From: Allomyces arbusculus
Lineage: Eukaryota; Blastocladiomycota; Blastocladiomycetes; Blastocladiales; Blastocladiaceae
Length of the DNA stretch: 64,000 nt
NCBI GenBank assembly: GCA_027604705.1
Contig: JADHYV010000003.1
Span: 62,001 to 126,000, forward strand
Direction of reading: 5' to 3'
A program made the position numbers and the translations under genes. The notes under the pieces were generated by a model. That model made no database searches. It saw nothing but the letters and a program-made list of their open reading frames with translations, and was not told the origin of the DNA. Every line of letters starts with the position of its first letter. Position 1 is the stretch's first letter. Positions 2,383 to 36,872 of this stretch are shown here, in pieces.

Positions 2383-3075
2383 ATGAACTACGGCGCACCC
2401 GCCATGATGGGCATTGCCTACATGCCCAAGCCCAAGTCCTCGTCTCGCTCGCGGTCCACGTCGCGCCCGCGGTCGACCAAGTCCGACAACGACGGCCCTT
2501 GGAGCCCAACGACCGGCACGATGCCCAGCATGCCGTCGACCATGAGCGGCCGGTCCGACACGGTCTCGATGCACTCGACCTCGTCGGGCGAGCACATGTC
2601 GTCGTCGCGGTCCACGCGCGGGCGCAGCAAGGGCGCCGCCATTGACTTGCTCGCAACAAGCGGCCACGCGGGCGACATTGCCGTGCAACACTACGTGCAG
2701 CTTGCGACCAACCCGGACGAAGCCGTGTCGGGCGGGTGGATCACCAAGGCCGGTGGTAAGCGGCGATTCCTGGTCCTGTTTTCCAGCGGGCGACTCGTCT
2801 ACTACAAGCACCGCGATCGCAAGGACGTGCTCGGTGTGGCCATGGTCCAGGCCCAGGCGTCGCTGTCGCAGCCGGACCCGACCAAGTTGCAGCTCTACAT
2901 TGTGTGCTCGCCGTTTGGCGCGTCAGAAGATGCTGATGAGTCGGTCAACCTGTGGATCACGTTTGAGGACGCATGGACCATGGAAATGTGGATCGACGAG
3001 CTCAAGAAGGTGATTTCGCGCGCACGCGCAAAGTTGCTCGAGGGGGCGCACGTGTCGCCGCTCGCGGCCGCGTAG
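2383..3075 (+). CDS. PH-domain protein, short paralogue (230 aa)
   Basis: Single-exon gene of 230 residues. The N-terminus (MNYGAPAMMGIAYMPKPKS) leads into a Ser/Arg-rich, probably disordered region to about residue 85. A pleckstrin-homology domain fills about 117-222, with strands KRRFLVLFSSGRLVYYKHRD and VNLWITFEDAWTMEMWIDEL; the last contains the hallmark C-terminal helix Trp. PH domains bind phosphoinositides or proteins, so a membrane-cortex adaptor is plausible, but the ligand is not readable here. No membrane segment or catalytic domain is seen. The next gene on the same strand (4619) shares both the N-terminal motif and the PH domain, so the two are a tandem duplication. The first in-frame ATG with the MNYG motif was chosen because the paralogue begins identically. 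Confidence 0.8.
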   Translation: MNYGAPAMMGIAYMPKPKSSSRSRSTSRPRSTKSDNDGPWSPTTGTMPSMPSTMSGRSDTVSMHSTSSGEHMSSSRSTRGRSKGAAIDLLATSGHAGDIAVQHYVQLATNPDEAVSGGWITKAGGKRRFLVLFSSGRLVYYKHRDRKDVLGVAMVQAQASLSQPDPTKLQLYIVCSPFGASEDADESVNLWITFEDAWTMEMWIDELKKVISRARAKLLEGAHVSPLAAA

Positions 3076-24214: not shown

Positions 24215-26323
24215 ATGCAAAAGTCGCAGCAAATCGTTGCCTGTACGCCCGTCCGTCCACCAACCCTTTGCGTCGCCAGCTCCAGTCGCTAATTATGGAT
24301 AACGGCTCCTTCAGACCGCTCCGGTGCCGACATCGCGGCCTGCGACCCGTTCAACCCGGAGGCTGCGCTCGCAACGCCGTTTGCCCGCGCTGGCGCGTTC
24401 CGCCATTTTGAGTACTCGCGCGACGGTTCGTCGCTTGCCTATGTCGGCCCCGAAGGGTGCGTGCTTGGCCGCTCTTTCCCCAAACTCGTTCTCCAACCTC
24501 GAGCCTGACCGAACGCTCCTCTTTTGATTCGAACAGGTTGACCGTCGTCAACGTCGCAACTGGCGAAGACGTCTACACGTTTGCACGAAAGGGCATCATC
24601 GAGGTGTCCGTGTCGCCCAATGGCTCGTTTGTGTGCACGTGGGAGCGCCAAGGTTCTTGTCACTTTATCCGTTTTTGCTTCGTCTGATCGATCTCTGGTG
24701 GTTCAACGCGCTCACTTTTGCGCTTGATCCACGTTGTAGCGCGCCCGGACCCGGAAACCAAGAAGCCGCACCTGAACCTGCTCATCCACTGCCTGACGAC
24801 CAAGGCCGTGATTGCCGAGCACGCGCACAAGGCGCAGGCGTCGTGGGCGCCGCAATGGACCGACGACGAGACCATGTACGCGCGGCTCACGTCGAATGCC
24901 GAGGTCACCATCTACTCGACGGCGCAGCGCGGGTCCACATTCAAGCTGCGCGCGACCAACATTGCCGCCTACTCGCTCTCGCCCGGCCGGAACCCGCACA
25001 TTGCCATTTTCATTCCCGAGGCCAAGAACGGGAACCCGGCGATCGTCAAGATGTTCAGTCTTGGCAACTTCAACGTGCCCATTTCCAACAAGACCTTCTT
25101 CAAGGCCGACAAGATCAAGTTTATTTGGAACAAGATTGGGACTGGCGTGCTGCTGCTCACGTCGACCGAGGTCGATGCGACGGGCCAGAGCTACTATGGC
25201 GAGAACAACCTCTACTATATGAGCACGGCCGGCAACTGGGATTGCCGCGTGACGCTCGGTATGGTTTTCGATCGCCTGACTCTTCCTTTCCCTTTGTCGG
25301 AACCGATCCGCTAACAATTGCTTCCCATTGTCGTGATTTTCAGACAAGGAAGGTCCGATCCACGATGTGGCATGGGCGCCCAACTCCAAGGAGTTTGCCG
25401 TGACCTACGGGTTCATCCCATCCAAGACGGCGCTCTTCTCGTACCGCGCCGACCCGATCTTCGAGTTTGGCACGGGCCCGCGCAACACTGTCTCCTTCAG
25501 CCCAAACGGCCGCATCCTGTGCATTGGCGGGTTCGGCAACTTGCCCGGCCAGCTCGATTTCTGGGACATGACCAAGCGCGCTAAGATCGCGTCGGTCTCG
25601 TGCCCAAACTCGACGCAGCTGTCGTGGTCGCCCGACGGCCGGTACCTGCTCACGTCGACGCTCTCGCCGCGCCTGCGCGTCGATAACGGCTGGAAACTCT
25701 GGCATTACCGCGGCGTCTGCGTCGCGTCGCACGCCGCCAAGGAATTGTTCCAGGTTATGTGGCGGCCGTGCGCGCAACTCGCGCCAAACCCAGAGTCGTG
25801 GGCGAAGCGGGAATTGTCGCCCGCTCCCGCAGGTCTCGTTGAGGCCGTGAAGCCGAAACCCGCGGGGGCCTACCGCCCGCCGTCGGCGCGACTCGGGCCG
25901 CGCGCCGTGCCCGGTGCCTCGTTCACGCAGCCGCCGCCGCAGAAGCGCACGGTGCCTGGTGCGCCGCAGACGGGCGGCCTCGTCCCGCGGAACGGCAGTC
26001 CGCAGCAGCAGCAGTCGCGCGGGAACTCGGCGAGCCCGGCTGGCGCGCAGCAGCAGAACGGCAACCGCGGTCGCACGCAGGGTGGGAAGCCGGCGTCGCC
26101 GGCACCTGCGCCTGCGGCCGATGCGGGGCCCGCACCGGGTACGGACCCGCAGTCGATTGAGAAGCGGTCGCAGTACCTGATCAAGAAGCTCAAGCAGATC
26201 ATGGGGCTCAAGCAGAAGATGGCGAATGGCGAGACGCTCGACCCGGCGCAGGTGCGCAAGCTCGAGAGCGAGGGTGAGGTGCGCATGCAGCTGGCCGAGA
26301 TGGGTGTCACGCCGCCGCTGTAG
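24215..26323 (+). CDS. EIF2A: Eukaryotic translation initiation factor 2A
   Basis: Alternative initiator-tRNA/40S-binding factor of the cytoplasm. Exons 24215-24242, 24315-24456, 24537-24652, 24740-25258 and 25344-26323 give 594 residues. The N-terminal WD-like propeller shows IVAYRSGAD, FEYSRDGSSLAYVGPEG, IEVSVSPNGSFVCTWE, GPIHDVAWAPNSKEF and STQLSWSPDGRYLLTSTLSP. FVWNK-type KIKFIWNKIGTGVLLL and DNGWKLWHYRG match eIF2A rather than eIF3b. A Pro/Gln/Gly-rich linker (~residues 455-540) precedes a C-terminal basic helix (KKLKQIMGLKQKMANGE). The tiny first coding exon (MQKSQQIVA) was chosen because it restores the family's N-terminal strand; the more obvious ATG at 24295 is out of frame and is followed at once by a 3' splice site. 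Confidence 0.92.
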
Positions 26324-28571: not shown

Positions 28572-31500
28572 ATGCACGACCTGAACCGCCGCAGCGACTT
28601 GCGGCCGCCACGGCGACAGGTGACCGAGCCGTTGACGCCGCGCTTGCTCCAGACATGGGCCGGCCTGGTCATGGTCGGGTTAGCCGTCGCTTTGCTCGCT
28701 GCGGTACCAGTGGCCGGTGCAACCGAGTTCAAGATTGCCGTTTCGTTGCCCTTGTCGTGTACGATCCATTCGCACGTCGTTGTGATGCGACCAGCGCACC
28801 GCTTCGAACGATGTCGTTGACCGTGATCTTTCATCCATCACCAGCGCCTGGTGACGGGTACTCGGCCACTGGCATCAAGGAGGCGCTCGAGATGGGGTTC
28901 GACGAAGTCAACCAGTGGGCTGCGTCGAGCTTTAACGGCAACAAGTTTTCGATGCTAATGTGCGTTCCTGTTTGCTGACAACGACGATCCGTTGGAGATT
29001 GGACTCTGGGCTGATCTTTGCGCGCACTTTGGCTCTGTATCAGGTACGACTCGTACAATTCGACGTCGTCGAGTGTCAAGAACATGTTCCAGGCCGACAA
29101 GGACGGCGCGGTTGCCATGGTCGGCGATTACCTGTCGTCGAGTACGTTCCGGATGCCATGCGGCCGCAACCACGTTTTTTATCTGTTCTCGCGCGATCCG
29201 TCGCTCACCCGTCGAACGTTCTTGCAGCGGTTATTCCGCAGGCTCTGGCCGGTAACAACTTCCAAATGTGGCAGTGCAGCGCGTCAGCGTCGTCGCCCAC
29301 GCTCAGCAACAAGAGCGACTTCAAGTTCTTTTTCAGGTAGGTCGCCCACCTCGCGTTGAACACCGAAATGCGAGCGCAGAGCAGTGGGCTAACCTGATGT
29401 CTTTCTTCTCCGTGACCCAGGACGATCCCAGTGCGTTTTTAATCGAGCATGTGAGCGGATTGTCTGACTGCGGCACTCACTCTTGCTTCTCCACCAGGCC
29501 GATAAGACGCAGGGCGCCGCGCTCGCGATCTTTGTCAAGGGGATGGGATGGCACAACGTGGCCATTATGGCATCGTCTGACGACTATGGCGAGGGTATGG
29601 AGCCGCTCTTGCACGCAACCACGTCCCCGGGTTTGCGATTAGATGGCTAATTCTATTGCTCGTTTCCCGTACCTAGGGATCAAGCAAGTCTTCACGGAAA
29701 AGGCCGGCGACCTGGGCGTACGCATCGCGTCGGTGCAGTCCTATTCACCCGGCGACCCGACGGGCCGGTCCTACGAAATTGCCGTGGAGGGTATTCGCAC
29801 GTCGGGCGTGCGCGTCGTCGTGTTCATGGGGCTGCACGAGGACCTGATTCCGATCGCGCGCATTGCGCGCAAAGTTAATGTCATTGGCGCCGACTGGGCG
29901 TGGGTCGCGTCCGAGGGCGTCTCGACGCTCGACGAGGCCATTACGCACGCCGCGGCGCAGGGCGACCATTCGACCTACTCGGACCAGGACAAGGAGAACA
30001 CGAACGGCCTGATCTTCATGTTTCCCGCCGAGTCGGGCGCCGGGTTCAAGGATTTCTTGGCTGCCTACCAGCAGCGGTTCAAGCGCCCGGATACGTTGTT
30101 TTACGCGACGCTGTTCAAGGTGCGTGGGTGGTAATGGTCGCGTGGTTTGGGCATCAGCCCTTCGTTGGCTCGTACTGACCGCATCGACTTTTCTCATTTC
30201 TAGGATTGCCTGACGGCACTGGCGCGCGGCATCGCCAAGATGGTCAAGGCCACGTCGGAAAAGGACGTGCTTGCGCGCAAGTACGGCAACAACCAGATTG
30301 GCGATTTCCTCGAGACCTTCACGTCGACGACGTCGGGCACCGTCGAGTTTGACAAGAACGGCGACCGCGTCATGGACTACTCGGCGTACGATTTGTCGCA
30401 TTCGTAGCCATTGCGCGCTTTCTGCCACGGCCCTTGTTGCTGACCGTTGACGACCCTCCTGACAGCATCAATCTGTACAACATGAAGCGCACGGTCGCGT
30501 GGACGGTGCACATGAAGGACCAAACAATCGAAAAGCGCGCCGAGGCGACGTTTTTCTCGGGCACCAATGTGCCGCCCAAGGACGAGCCCGACTTGCAGCG
30601 GGGGTACCCGCTCTTCACCGATATCGGCGCAATCGTGACCATGGGCCTCGCCGGCCTCCTGATTCTCTTGATCGTCGGCACGCTCGGGTACTTAACCATC
30701 AACCGCGAGCATAGCGCCGTCAAGCACATGTCGCTGCCGTTCATTTCGCTCACGTGCGCCGGTCTCGTCTTTGTGCTCGGTGCCACGTTCCTGTGGGTCG
30801 GCCGGCCGACGCCACTGACGTGCATGCTGCGGCGCTGGATCTTTTTGATTGGGTTCGAGCTAACTATGTCGGCGGTGGCTGCCAAGGCCTACCGGCTGTA
30901 CAAGATCTTTGATAACGCTGCGCTCAGCAAGCTGCACAAGCTCAGCAACGTCAACCTCATGATTGGATGCTCGTTGATCATTCTAATCCAGATTGGTATG
31001 CTCGCGGCGTTCACGTTCTTGGCGCCGCAGAAGAGCGTGCACATTGTGTCGTTTTCATCGGACACGTATGAGTGCGTCGCCGACAATGCCGGGATGGACC
31101 GGCTCTTCAACATTCTCTCGCTCGTCTACAACGGTCTCCTCGTTGCGGCGGTCGCATATCTCGCGTTTGTGACGCGCAAGGCGTATAGCCAGTTCCGTGA
31201 GAGCGTTTTCATCATGTACTCGGTGCGCCTTTTGATTCTGGTTTCTTGAACCATGTCACGGACACCGTGCTAAGAATCTGGTGATGGACACGCGCAATAG
31301 GTGCAAAACATCTTCCTCAGCGCCGTCGTCGTGTCGCCGTTCCTGTTTATTATCGGCGGCGACTTTGCGCTCGGCGCCTACTATATCAAGGCGCTGACCG
31401 TGTGCTACGCCGTCGCGTTCACGTACGCGTGCCTCGTTGGTCGTATTGCGCTCGCTCTGCACCTGGCCAAGTCGAAGTCGGCCAACACGGGCGTCAAGAT

Positions 31501-32147
31501 GAACCTCAGCAACGACCCGTCGAGCTCGGGCAACAATGGCATCTCGTCGGCCGAGAACCTGCCGGGCAAGCCACAAACGATGCACGGAAAGTATCCTGTA
31601 AAGGTACGAACGAATCCTCGCGATGCTGCCTCGTATTCCGCTGGTGAAGGCTTACGTTCGTGGTTCCCCCTTCCCCACGCTCCAGATCGCCAACAAGCTC
31701 TTCGAGACGTGGCACACGAACCGGGTCATGCTCCTCGCGCTCGAAGGGTATCTGGCGCTCACACGCAACACGGGATCGACGGAATCGGGCAAGCTGTTCA
31801 AGCTTCGCTCGATTACCTTTGATCCTAACCCCCCTTCGTACCCAATTTGTTTGGAAATTCGCGCCGACTCGACATCCTACCTTATTCAATTTAACAAGGA
31901 GGAGGACAAGCAGAAATGGGTGCGCGCGCTCTCGGTGCATTGCCTGATCATGTCGAAATCGTCGGCGAACAAGTCGTCGAACAACGGCGCCACGACTCTC
32001 GGCACGCACCCGGGCGTCGGCAACCCGAACACGTTTGGCGCGCGCAGTCTGGCGTTCTCGGGCGGCGTCGGCATGGCCAGCAACAACAACGCGACGAGCC
32101 AGTTCCAGTCGCAGATTGGGGCGTACGTAGGCGCGGGCAAGAAGTAG
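28572..32147 (+). CDS. Class C (GABA-B-like) GPCR with C-terminal PH-like domain
   Basis: Predicted plasma-membrane receptor of 926 residues from 11 exons: 28572-28758, 28845-28959, 29044-29141, 29228-29336, 29421-29430, 29498-29594, 29677-30119, 30204-30403, 30466-31222, 31301-31603 and 31686-32147. A signal-anchor-like stretch lies at ~25-49. A periplasmic-binding-protein (Venus flytrap) ectodomain spans ~51-420, with FFFRTIPADKTQGAALA, WHNVAIMASSDDYGEG and DTLFYATLFKDCLTALARG. Seven hydrophobic helices lie between ~440 and 720 in the class C order, including FLWVGRPTPLTCMLRRW and the CVADNAG loop. After a Ser/Asn-rich linker, ~774-860 looks like a PH domain (LEGYLALTRN, LEIRADSTSYLIQF, KEEDKQKWVRAL). 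Ligand unknown. The 10-base exon is needed to keep frame. Confidence 0.85.
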
Positions 32148-34101: not shown

Positions 34102-36872
34102 CTACACCAAATCATAAATCGCGCGAATGCGTTCCGTCAACCGGCGCACCTCGTTCATCTGCGACGCGACACTGTAGTGGCTGCTGCGATTCGCCGCCGC
34201 ATCCGCCTCGGCTTGCGCCTGCGCTTGTGCTGCTGCCGCGGATGCTGTTGCGGGCTCGTCAGCGCGCAAGTCCTCGGCCGAGGCCTCGCCGCTCGGCGGG
34301 ACACTACCGGACGCGACCATCACCTCAAACTCGGCTGGTTGCGACCGTTTTGCCGAGCCGTCGCCGTTCATTGCTGTCGGCTCGGCGCCCGCCGACATCG
34401 GCCCATCGGCCGCGCGCGATGGCACGCGCAGTGTAGACCCGGACGACGCTGACGCGCGACGGCCAGTCCCTGGCGTTGCGCCGGGCAGGGATGGTGGTGC
34501 AGGCGGTGCCGCGTGCGGGAGCAACGGCAGGAGCGGGCGCAGCGCGCGCAAAATCCGCACATCCCCTAAATCCAGCAACTGCACGATCGCATGCAACGCG
34601 AGGTGGCGCAACGTCCAGTCGTCGAACCGCAGGAGGGCGGCGAGCGCGGCGACCAGCGGGGACATGGGTGTCGACGGCGCCGTCGTGCTCGACCCGTGCG
34701 ACGACGCCGTCGAGTTGCGGAGGACGCTCCGGTGCGGGTGGCCCAGTGGGGACGGCGGACGGTAGAGCGATCCCACGAGCGCATGGGCAAGGGACTCGAT
34801 ATCGGTCGGCCGCTGCGCAAGGTTCGCGAGGGCGGCGACGCCATTCGCCAGGACCTCGATCGATCCTTCCATGTCCGGATCGAGACAGTCGGGCATGACC
34901 GCATCAAGGTGCCGGTTCCCGTCGTCGTTCATCGCCACCGCGAGGCTTGGCGGGATCCGGCACAGGTACTCAAGCAACGGTACAACGTGGCCCTGCGCCG
35001 GGTGCAGCATTTCGGCACGGCACTTATCGTCGGTCGCGAGTACGGCCATGGCCGCGCCAATCTCGCACTGCACGGCCGCGTTCACGATATAGACTTCCGG
35101 GTCCATGGCGTCCCCCGCGGGTCCCGGATCCTCGACGAGCGCGCCGAGGAGCGGCGTCGTTTCCGCGACCACGAGCGAATTGGCCCGTGTGGGAGTTTCC
35201 GGTGGCATCCCGGACGACGCCGGCATGAGCAGGACGCGGCGGAACGTATCGAGCGCGCCGAGCCGCAGAATCCGGACTTTGTAATCCCGATCGGCCGCGG
35301 CCAAGTTGCGCAGCGTCGACGCCGCATGCAGTCGAATCTCGTCCGTCACCTGCCTGGTCAACACCGTCCCATCCGTGACGAGCAACTGTTTGACCAAGTT
35401 TGACTGCACGATGCCGCGATCGCTGACGAGCGCCAAGAGCACGTTCACAAATGTATCCTGCAGTCCCAAACTCGCGAGCCGTGCGGGCAACGCGTCGCAG
35501 ATCGACAGGTTGCGCAGACATGCCGCGGCAGCGAGCCGCAGTGGCGGGTACTCGGACCGCGCGTGCGCAATGAGCACACTCAGGGCTGACGAGTGCACAA
35601 TCAAGTTCTGGAAGACGGTGGCCGATGCCAAGTTGCGCAGCGCGAGTGCCGCCTGCGTCTGCAGCCGCAATGGCGTTGGCGGGCTCAGGTGGCCGACAAG
35701 CGTCGGCGTCAGCGACGCGTACCGGTCGAAGTCGGTGAGCCGCGCGCGCGTCGATGCGTCCACGGCGAGATTCGACACGGCCGTTGTCGCGTAGTAGACG
35801 ACTTCCGGGTCCTGGTGCCGCCGGAGCAAGTCAATCAGGGCGGCGAGGGCATCGACGGCGGGTTCCGCGCCCGACTCGTAGAGCGCGTCAGCGTCGGGCT
35901 CGACGAGCATCGCGCGGTGTGTGGCTGAGTGCGTCAGGTTGAGCAACGCACCCGTCGCGTTGCGCGCAACGCGCACGTCGTCGGCCTGCGTCAGCGAAAT
36001 CAAACTCGTCACGAGTGCGGGCGTCGTAATATGCGACTTGGTTTCGTCGTCGGTCAAGAAATTGGTGATGCAGCCCACGGCATTACACTGCACCTCGATG
36101 CTCTGCGACTCGGTCAGCGCCAGAAGCCGCGAGACAATGTCGTCGGTGACGATGCTCGGCTTATTCTCGGCTATAGATCGAAAAGCAGGTCAGTGGCAAA
36201 TCCACAAAATCGCCCAGAACGAATCAGTGCGGACCAACTACAGCCAAGTTGCCCAGCGCGGCACTTGCTGCTCGTTGCACCTCGTCGTCCTCAAACCCAA
36301 GCAGCGACGTCAAGATGTCAACGACCGTCTCGTTGACGACGAGTGGTTCTGCAGACAAAAAAATGGGTTAGGCTGAGCCGAGAAACACGTCACCGATGCA
36401 GAAAAGCGCTACACGTACCACGTTCCGTGACATTGGCCAAAATCAACGCGGCAGCGCGCCCGCTCGGGATGTCCGTTGCGTCCGACTGCAATACGTTGAG
36501 CACTTCGAGCAGCTCACCCTGGAAGAAATCGCTCGGTGGATGCTCGAGCAATGAGCCCGTCGCGCCGGCATAGTCGGCAAAAAAGGGCAGGGCTACATCA
36601 ACCAGCAAATCACATCAGCTGCCCCGTCCAATACGTTGCTTGTCTAAGGCGGGGGTGCACGTACACTCGACAAACGAGAACACCTCGGCAATCGCATTCC
36701 GCTCGGCCTCGCGTGGGTCGGTCGCGAGCTGGTCGTAGAGTTTGCGTGACCGGTCGTCGCGCGACAAGGACGGGCAACACGCCGTCAGGCCGCAGCAAGT
36801 CCATGCAGTCGACGTGTCAGGCTCCGGCGGCGATGGGGCCAGCGTCTCGACTTGGCTCGAGGCGACGCCCAT
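34102..36872 (-). CDS. VAC8: Vac8-like armadillo-repeat protein
   Basis: Vacuole-membrane scaffold; in yeast Vac8 acts in vacuole inheritance, nucleus-vacuole junctions and the Cvt/autophagy pathway. Exons 36872-36665, 36592-36419, 36348-36235 and 36170-34102 give 854 residues. MGVASS offers an N-myristoylation Gly2, and Cys26, 27, 32 and 33 could be palmitoylated, as in the family's SH4 region. Armadillo repeats fill ~60-560 ([62 protein letters not shown]). The C-terminal ~250 residues extend beyond yeast Vac8 (578) with disordered Ala/Ser/Gln-rich segments and a final helix ([15 protein letters not shown]). It could be a paralogue with an altered role. One donor appears to be GTCCGC. Confidence 0.87.

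Follow-up and report, generated by a model that had tools for sequence, protein, structure and literature searches.

A family of class C receptors with a predicted C-terminal PH domain in the genome of Allomyces arbusculus

Described class C receptors and receptor fusions

Class C G protein-coupled receptors (GPCRs) are abundant in the Blastocladiomycota and Chytridiomycota, with 78 members in Allomyces macrogynus (Krishnan 2012, PMC3251606), and the same enrichment is repeated in the accessible text of PMC12842992 (its class 16). According to the accessible part of PMC3251606, the NCD3G domain is absent from all of the novel non-metazoan members. The terms ‘PH domain’ and ‘pleckstrin’ do not occur in the main text of either paper, as far as that text is accessible. 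Another group of receptors, the GPCR-bigrams of oomycetes and other organisms (GPCR-PIPK, GPCR-INPP, GPCR-TKL, and others), is defined by a catalytic accessory domain at the C-terminus in the accessible text of PMC6033456, and the excerpted text of PMC5784254 describes GPCR-PIPKs as seemingly absent from fungi. Within the accessible text of PMC12716839, PMC5784254, PMC6033456, and PMC10445921, ‘PH domain’ has no occurrence, and ‘pleckstrin’ is either absent or confined to the DEP domain's name.

The receptor gene described here lies in a 64,000-nucleotide stretch of the Allomyces arbusculus genome (contig JADHYV010000003.1, positions 62,001 to 126,000, forward strand; hereafter, the window). 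Matches to radial-spoke, Zn_clus, and chitin-synthase families agree with an origin in a zoosporic fungus. The encoded protein resembles the fungal class C receptors of PMC3251606 and PMC12842992, as described in their accessible text, in its 7tm_3 domain, in the ANF_receptor domain that most of them have, and in the lack of NCD3G, and its source genome shares the large lineage expansion (59 loci here versus 78 receptors in A. macrogynus). However, those receptors are described there with additional domains on the N-terminal side only, whereas the receptor in the window carries a PH domain at the C-terminus. The GPCR-bigrams (PMC5784254 and PMC6033456, accessible text) likewise join a 7TM receptor to a signalling domain at the C-terminus of the same polypeptide, but their C-terminal domains are catalytic, while here a non-catalytic PH domain is attached to a class C receptor and no catalytic domain was matched in the protein by Pfam at E <= 0.1. 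The receptor is therefore bigram-like in layout and falls outside the bigram definition as given in the excerpts of PMC6033456, because the PH domain is non-catalytic.

The literature searched, which has many journals outside its coverage, gave no description of a PH tail on a class C receptor. The initial annotation knew of no described family with this layout, and the literature searched agrees, including the accessible text of the GPCR papers that do not use ‘PH domain’, although such agreement is not proof. Class C receptors are already known from zoosporic fungi, and it is their combination with a C-terminal PH domain that appears to be undescribed. The finding is also larger than the single gene annotated initially, as it concerns a receptor family, seen in one genome. 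Receptors and membrane-proximal adaptors are usually separate proteins, and here the adaptor would be fused to the receptor. An expanded fused family of animal-like class C receptors in a flagellated fungus would offer a natural test of what GPCR signalling gains from docking in cis, and the fused PH tail may serve as a marker for tracing the evolution of class C receptors in fungi.

The receptor gene and its relatives in the source genome

The receptor gene has 11 exons and encodes 923 amino acids from start to stop codon (Table 1). Its splice sites are predicted, having been set by eye from the conserved receptor sequence and the open frame and then checked; all ten introns are of the GT...AG type with a length of 67–86 bases. 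The gene coordinates and the last splice (31603/31686), itself a prediction from sequence, coincide with those of the initial annotation, which put the protein at about 926 residues rather than 923. The Ser/Asn/Gly-rich end of the protein matched no Pfam family at E <= 0.1.

Table 1. Features of the class C receptor gene and other matches in the window (window coordinates).
Feature	Position	Strand	Basis
Whole class C GPCR-PH gene	28572..32147	+	Gene model and domain matches
Exon 1: N-terminal hydrophobic stretch LVMVGLAVALLAAVPVAGA, putative signal peptide; start of the flytrap	28572..28758	+	Signal peptide read from sequence
Exons 2-8 (28845-28959, 29044-29141, 29228-29336, 29421-29430, 29498-29594, 29677-30119, 30204-30394): Venus-flytrap ectodomain	28845..30394	+	ANF_receptor, residues 74-416, reaching the end of exon 8
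Exon 9: stalk and the greater part of the 7TM bundle	30466..31222	+	7tm_3 match in open frame 30467-31249 alone
Exon 10: last part of the 7TM match, linker of about 50 residues, first PH strand (GKYPVK, 31586-31603)	31301..31603	+	
Exon 11 (31686-32147), first part: remainder of PH, strand 2 to C-terminal helix (KEEDKQKWVRAL)	31686..31961	+	
Exon 11, rest: tail rich in Ser/Asn/Gly, then stop codon	31962..32147	+	
Upstream neighbour	25337..26320	+	eIF2A match (2e-52)
Downstream neighbour, armadillo-repeat protein on the opposite strand	34105..36189	-	Match at 1.6e-20
Second weak PH match, in a 313-aa frame	2746..3015	+	21.6 bits, under the cut-off

Based on Pfam searches with the whole protein, the flytrap matches ANF_receptor with 137 bits (E 1e-39; cut-off 25.4), and residues 468–715 match 7tm_3 with 126.6 bits (E 1.7e-36; cut-off 33.5). 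Together with the PH matches given below, these support the order of a Venus flytrap, seven helices, and a C-terminal PH domain that had been read from the sequence initially. The flytrap and 7TM are homologous to those of the animal mGlu, CaSR, and GABA-B receptors, which, to our knowledge, have no PH tail. In contrast to animal mGlu and CaSR, the receptor protein has no Pfam match to the NCD3G cysteine-rich domain at E <= 0.1, a domain that marks these two subtypes and not class C as a whole. Among the best 60 of 149 phmmer matches to solved structures, the flytrap is nearest to mGlu3 (E 1.5e-23) and CaSR, and the 7TM matches mGlu5 as well as GABA-B2 (E 3.7e-18), so that the term GABA-B-type, used in the initial annotation, is too narrow.

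In the whole protein, PH is matched at residues 778–853 with 20.6 bits (E 6.5e-4), which is under the Pfam cut-off of 25.1. Exon 11 alone gives 23.7 bits (E 7.2e-5), and a 100-aa segment that includes the first strand from exon 10 gives 26.2 bits (E 1.2e-5), above the cut-off. In an alignment of 13 PH modules from the source genome (A1; 122 columns), the Trp before strand 2 is invariant, an FDPNP-like turn occurs in most modules, and the PH-typical Trp of the C-terminal helix (W87 of A1) is kept in at least 90% of the 13 modules, L026 being without it. A profile built from the other 12 modules matched the window segment with 129.2 bits (E 5.4e-39), and the best of 2000 shuffles reached 7.7 bits.

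The tail could instead be a PH-like barrel of other descent (e.g., PTB or FERM-F3), or else a novel fold resembling PH only in its sequence, but both are improbable given the profile matches. Scanned singly, 11 of the 13 modules match PF00169 at E <= 0.1 (best 2.1e-6), and the next family, SOS1_NGEF_PH (three modules), is likewise a PH family. When the A1 profile was compared with all PDB chains, eight of the nine rows at E <= 1 look PH-bearing by name; the top two are ArfGAP PH domains (2da0, E 0.0013; 5c6r, E 0.0038), and the sole exception is the ninth row, an unrelated effector (E 0.96). The profile match thus extends to the PH domains of ASAP-type ArfGAPs and of GRK2/3, although GRK3 is matched only weakly (E 0.14). 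What speaks for another fold is that two of the 13 modules have no PF00169 match at E 0.1 and that single-sequence AlphaFold modelling gave low confidence. Two models without the first strand (31686-32003 and 31686-31961) had pLDDT values of 46.3 and 46.0; the former has five strands followed by a helix, and the latter opens with a long helix. Foldseek placed the DAPP1 PH domain on top for the former at a non-significant E of 0.82. The structural check proposed in the initial annotation, run on a single sequence, is uninformative on the PH fold at a pLDDT of about 46.

A 7tm_3 search of the 25.9-Mb source genome gave 88 places, which were merged to 59 loci; these are exon matches and may include fragments. 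Modules were assigned to loci followed, within 2500 bases and on the same strand, by a match to the PH module or to Pfam PH. By this procedure, 27 of the 59 loci have a PH match, the nearest at 157–945 bases, with a best E <= 0.001 at 21 of them and weaker values (0.0025 to 0.08) at the other six. A family profile iterated over the retrieved loci also picks up L041, L044, and L047, which raises the number to 30 of 59. Pfam-PH gave 41 rows across the genome, of which 8 are within receptor loci, and the two module queries gave a single hit that is not downstream of 7tm_3 (C80:35143-35373). This hit, on the reverse strand, contains two internal TGA stops and is possibly a broken receptor gene; some 6.4 kb separate it from the L027 receptor module, which is on the opposite strand.

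Twelve distinct genes have a TM7 stretch and PH sequence within a single open frame that is free of interruptions. The whole module is present in nine of these, and the incomplete cases are L012, with its module in two pieces, L017, with the first 35 profile positions, and L035, with the last 61. In three genes (L024, L026, and L028), the 7TM profile match is within the same open reading frame, and in L026 the flytrap, 7TM, and module all lie in one frame (603 aa long within the locus and 753 aa within the genome). TM7 and PH therefore form one reading frame in relatives of the window gene, and the 27 loci, the three added by iteration, the 12 one-frame genes, and L026 establish the 7TM-PH layout as that of a receptor family rather than of a lone odd gene.

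The last exon of the window gene is also conserved as protein: compared with the closest paralogue, L010, exon 11 has a dN of 0.24 and a dS of 1.89 (near saturation) over 91 codons, and its third-position GC is 81%, versus 83% across the whole coding sequence. Such an exon could in principle belong to a separate gene or be a non-functional read-through, with the fusion an artefact of the gene model, and the splice between exons 10 and 11 is indeed only predicted. The one-frame paralogues, the excess of dS over dN, and the PH matches closely downstream of 27 loci nevertheless make a separate gene or a chance extension very unlikely, to a degree that we give it almost no weight. The initial annotation had named a separate gene for the last exon as the outcome that would overturn the fusion, and the paralogues with TM7 and PH in one frame contradict it.

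Possible role of the PH module

Our preferred reading, to which we assign a probability of about 0.5, is that the PH tail is a docking module in cis for a signalling protein on a ligand-sensing class C receptor. The flytrap would bind a small ligand, such as an amino acid or a similar molecule, and the 7TM would activate a heterotrimeric G protein. The topology of class C receptors puts the C-terminal tail in the cytosol, where the PH domain, about 50 residues past the 7TM match, may act as an integral docking module on the inner face of the membrane. A protein partner (Gbeta-gamma, a small GTPase, or a scaffold) would be more likely than a phosphoinositide. ASAP-type ArfGAPs and GRK2/3 are cytosolic regulators acting in trans, and the tail could supply in cis the function for which GRK2/3 and similar PH-bearing regulators are recruited as separate proteins; it is this GRK biology, together with the weak GRK3 match, that suggests Gbeta-gamma as a partner. 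The source genome encodes many G-protein parts, including Galpha (37 rows, about 12 loci above the cut-off), RGS (11 rows), and PI-PLC-Y (two loci), and a classical GPCR output is therefore plausible.

PH domains that bind phosphoinositides have a basic motif of strands 1–2, with an Arg in strand 2 at position W+3. In the register given by a Trp-to-Trp alignment of A1 with 2da0, the W+3 residue is Asn in the window module and Arg in only one of the 13 modules, so that the canonical phosphoinositide motif is not kept among the modules of A1 and the canonical Arg of the ASAP-type ArfGAP and GRK2/3 PH domains is replaced in the module here. Ten of the 13 modules have His at this position, where phosphoinositide-binding PH domains have Arg, and the conserved His might point to a site of partner contact or to a response to pH. 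Charge is not conserved either, as the pI of the 13 modules ranges from 5.0 to 9.9. Conservation thus covers the fold-defining residues but neither the classical Arg nor the net charge, which slightly favours protein docking over lipid binding, as far as can be judged from the sequence. However, the accessible text of PMC4704004 describes the lipid-binding motifs of PH domains as tenuous and of limited predictive value and reports non-canonical PH sites, so the missing Arg is compatible with lipid binding.

The principal alternative to docking of a protein is that the PH domain binds phosphoinositides, and thereby keeps the receptor in PIP2- or PIP3-rich patches of the membrane or makes it responsive to them. 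The module belongs to the PH family by profile, its best solved relative is the PH domain of a protein named PIP2-dependent ArfGAP, and a PI-PLC is encoded in the source genome; moreover, the window module is basic (pI 9.4, with 14 K+R and 9 D+E), which leaves room for lipid contact. Against this stand the W+3 residue, the neutral or acidic character of several modules (lowest pI 5.0 and 5.4), and the consideration that a 7TM protein is already embedded in the membrane, for which a lipid anchor would be superfluous. We therefore treat phosphoinositide binding as a somewhat disfavoured hypothesis, and the proposal of the initial annotation that the module would tie signalling directly to phosphoinositides is not supported, given a classical Arg in one of 13 modules, even if the predictive value of these motifs is limited (PMC4704004, accessible text). 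The module may instead set which of the paralogues dimerise or leave the ER. Class C receptors function as dimers, and in the GABA-B receptor a coiled coil governs pairing and ER exit. The many clustered paralogues with diverging modules, and the combination of conserved fold residues with variable charge, would suit such a role, but PH domains rarely act as dimerisers, and we regard a pairing or trafficking module as unlikely.

Spread and age of the PH tail among the paralogues

The distribution of the tail was compared with a FastTree phylogeny of the 7TM domain, rooted at the midpoint, which covers 33 of the 59 loci, the other 26 being left out. In this tree, 18 module-bearing receptors, including the window gene, form a single clade with a support of 1.0. 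A second module-bearing group (L041, L044, L046, and L047) has a support of 0.84 and adjoins L045 (0.92), and the node that unites it with the receptors of C50 and C37 is supported at only 0.25. The receptors C37/C46:16.7k and C102 are labelled module-less in the tree, yet they show weak signs of PH. An alignment of C37 and C46:16.7k (A3) matches A1 with an hhalign probability of 90.6%, and C102 (L033) reaches 19.1%. Scanned singly, PF00169 is matched by C46:16.7k (E 0.0039), by the C98 gene L044 (E 7e-4), and by C102 (E 0.039). There is no PF00169 match up to E 1 in C37, C6 (L032), L035, or L026, the last of which has a module seen by the family profile (75 bits).

The C50 cluster (L037, L042, L043, and L048) has two conserved adjacent exons past TM7, with the motifs LAVRF...APW...ILVVRS and LVLSLRKLV...EWH, which look by eye like the halves of a PH domain. 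The C50 tails are not supported as PH domains, as Pfam matched none of the four members and hhalign gave a probability of 2.8% against A1. Because the C50 tails are unsupported and the other loci have a weak PF00169 match or none, the count for the source genome is restricted to 27 of the 59 loci (21 at E <= 0.001), a number that rises to 30 when the iterated profile is included. The PH module is thus present at between a third and a half of the class C receptor loci in the source genome.

The weak PH signs in receptors labelled module-less make an ancestral tail that has decayed in places possible, the C50 cluster offering no sign that stands. A broader scenario, which we hold as tentative and on balance doubtful, is that the PH tail is old and near-standard in the class C receptors of this lineage of zoosporic fungi, predating most of their expansion and having diverged past the reach of Pfam in several clades, and that it would replace separate PH-bearing GPCR regulators as an adaptor in cis for Gbeta-gamma or small GTPases. 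The 7tm_3 loci are also clustered in the source genome, with six each on C98 and C50, five on C88, and three on C74, and these local clusters suggest tandem duplication of class C receptors.
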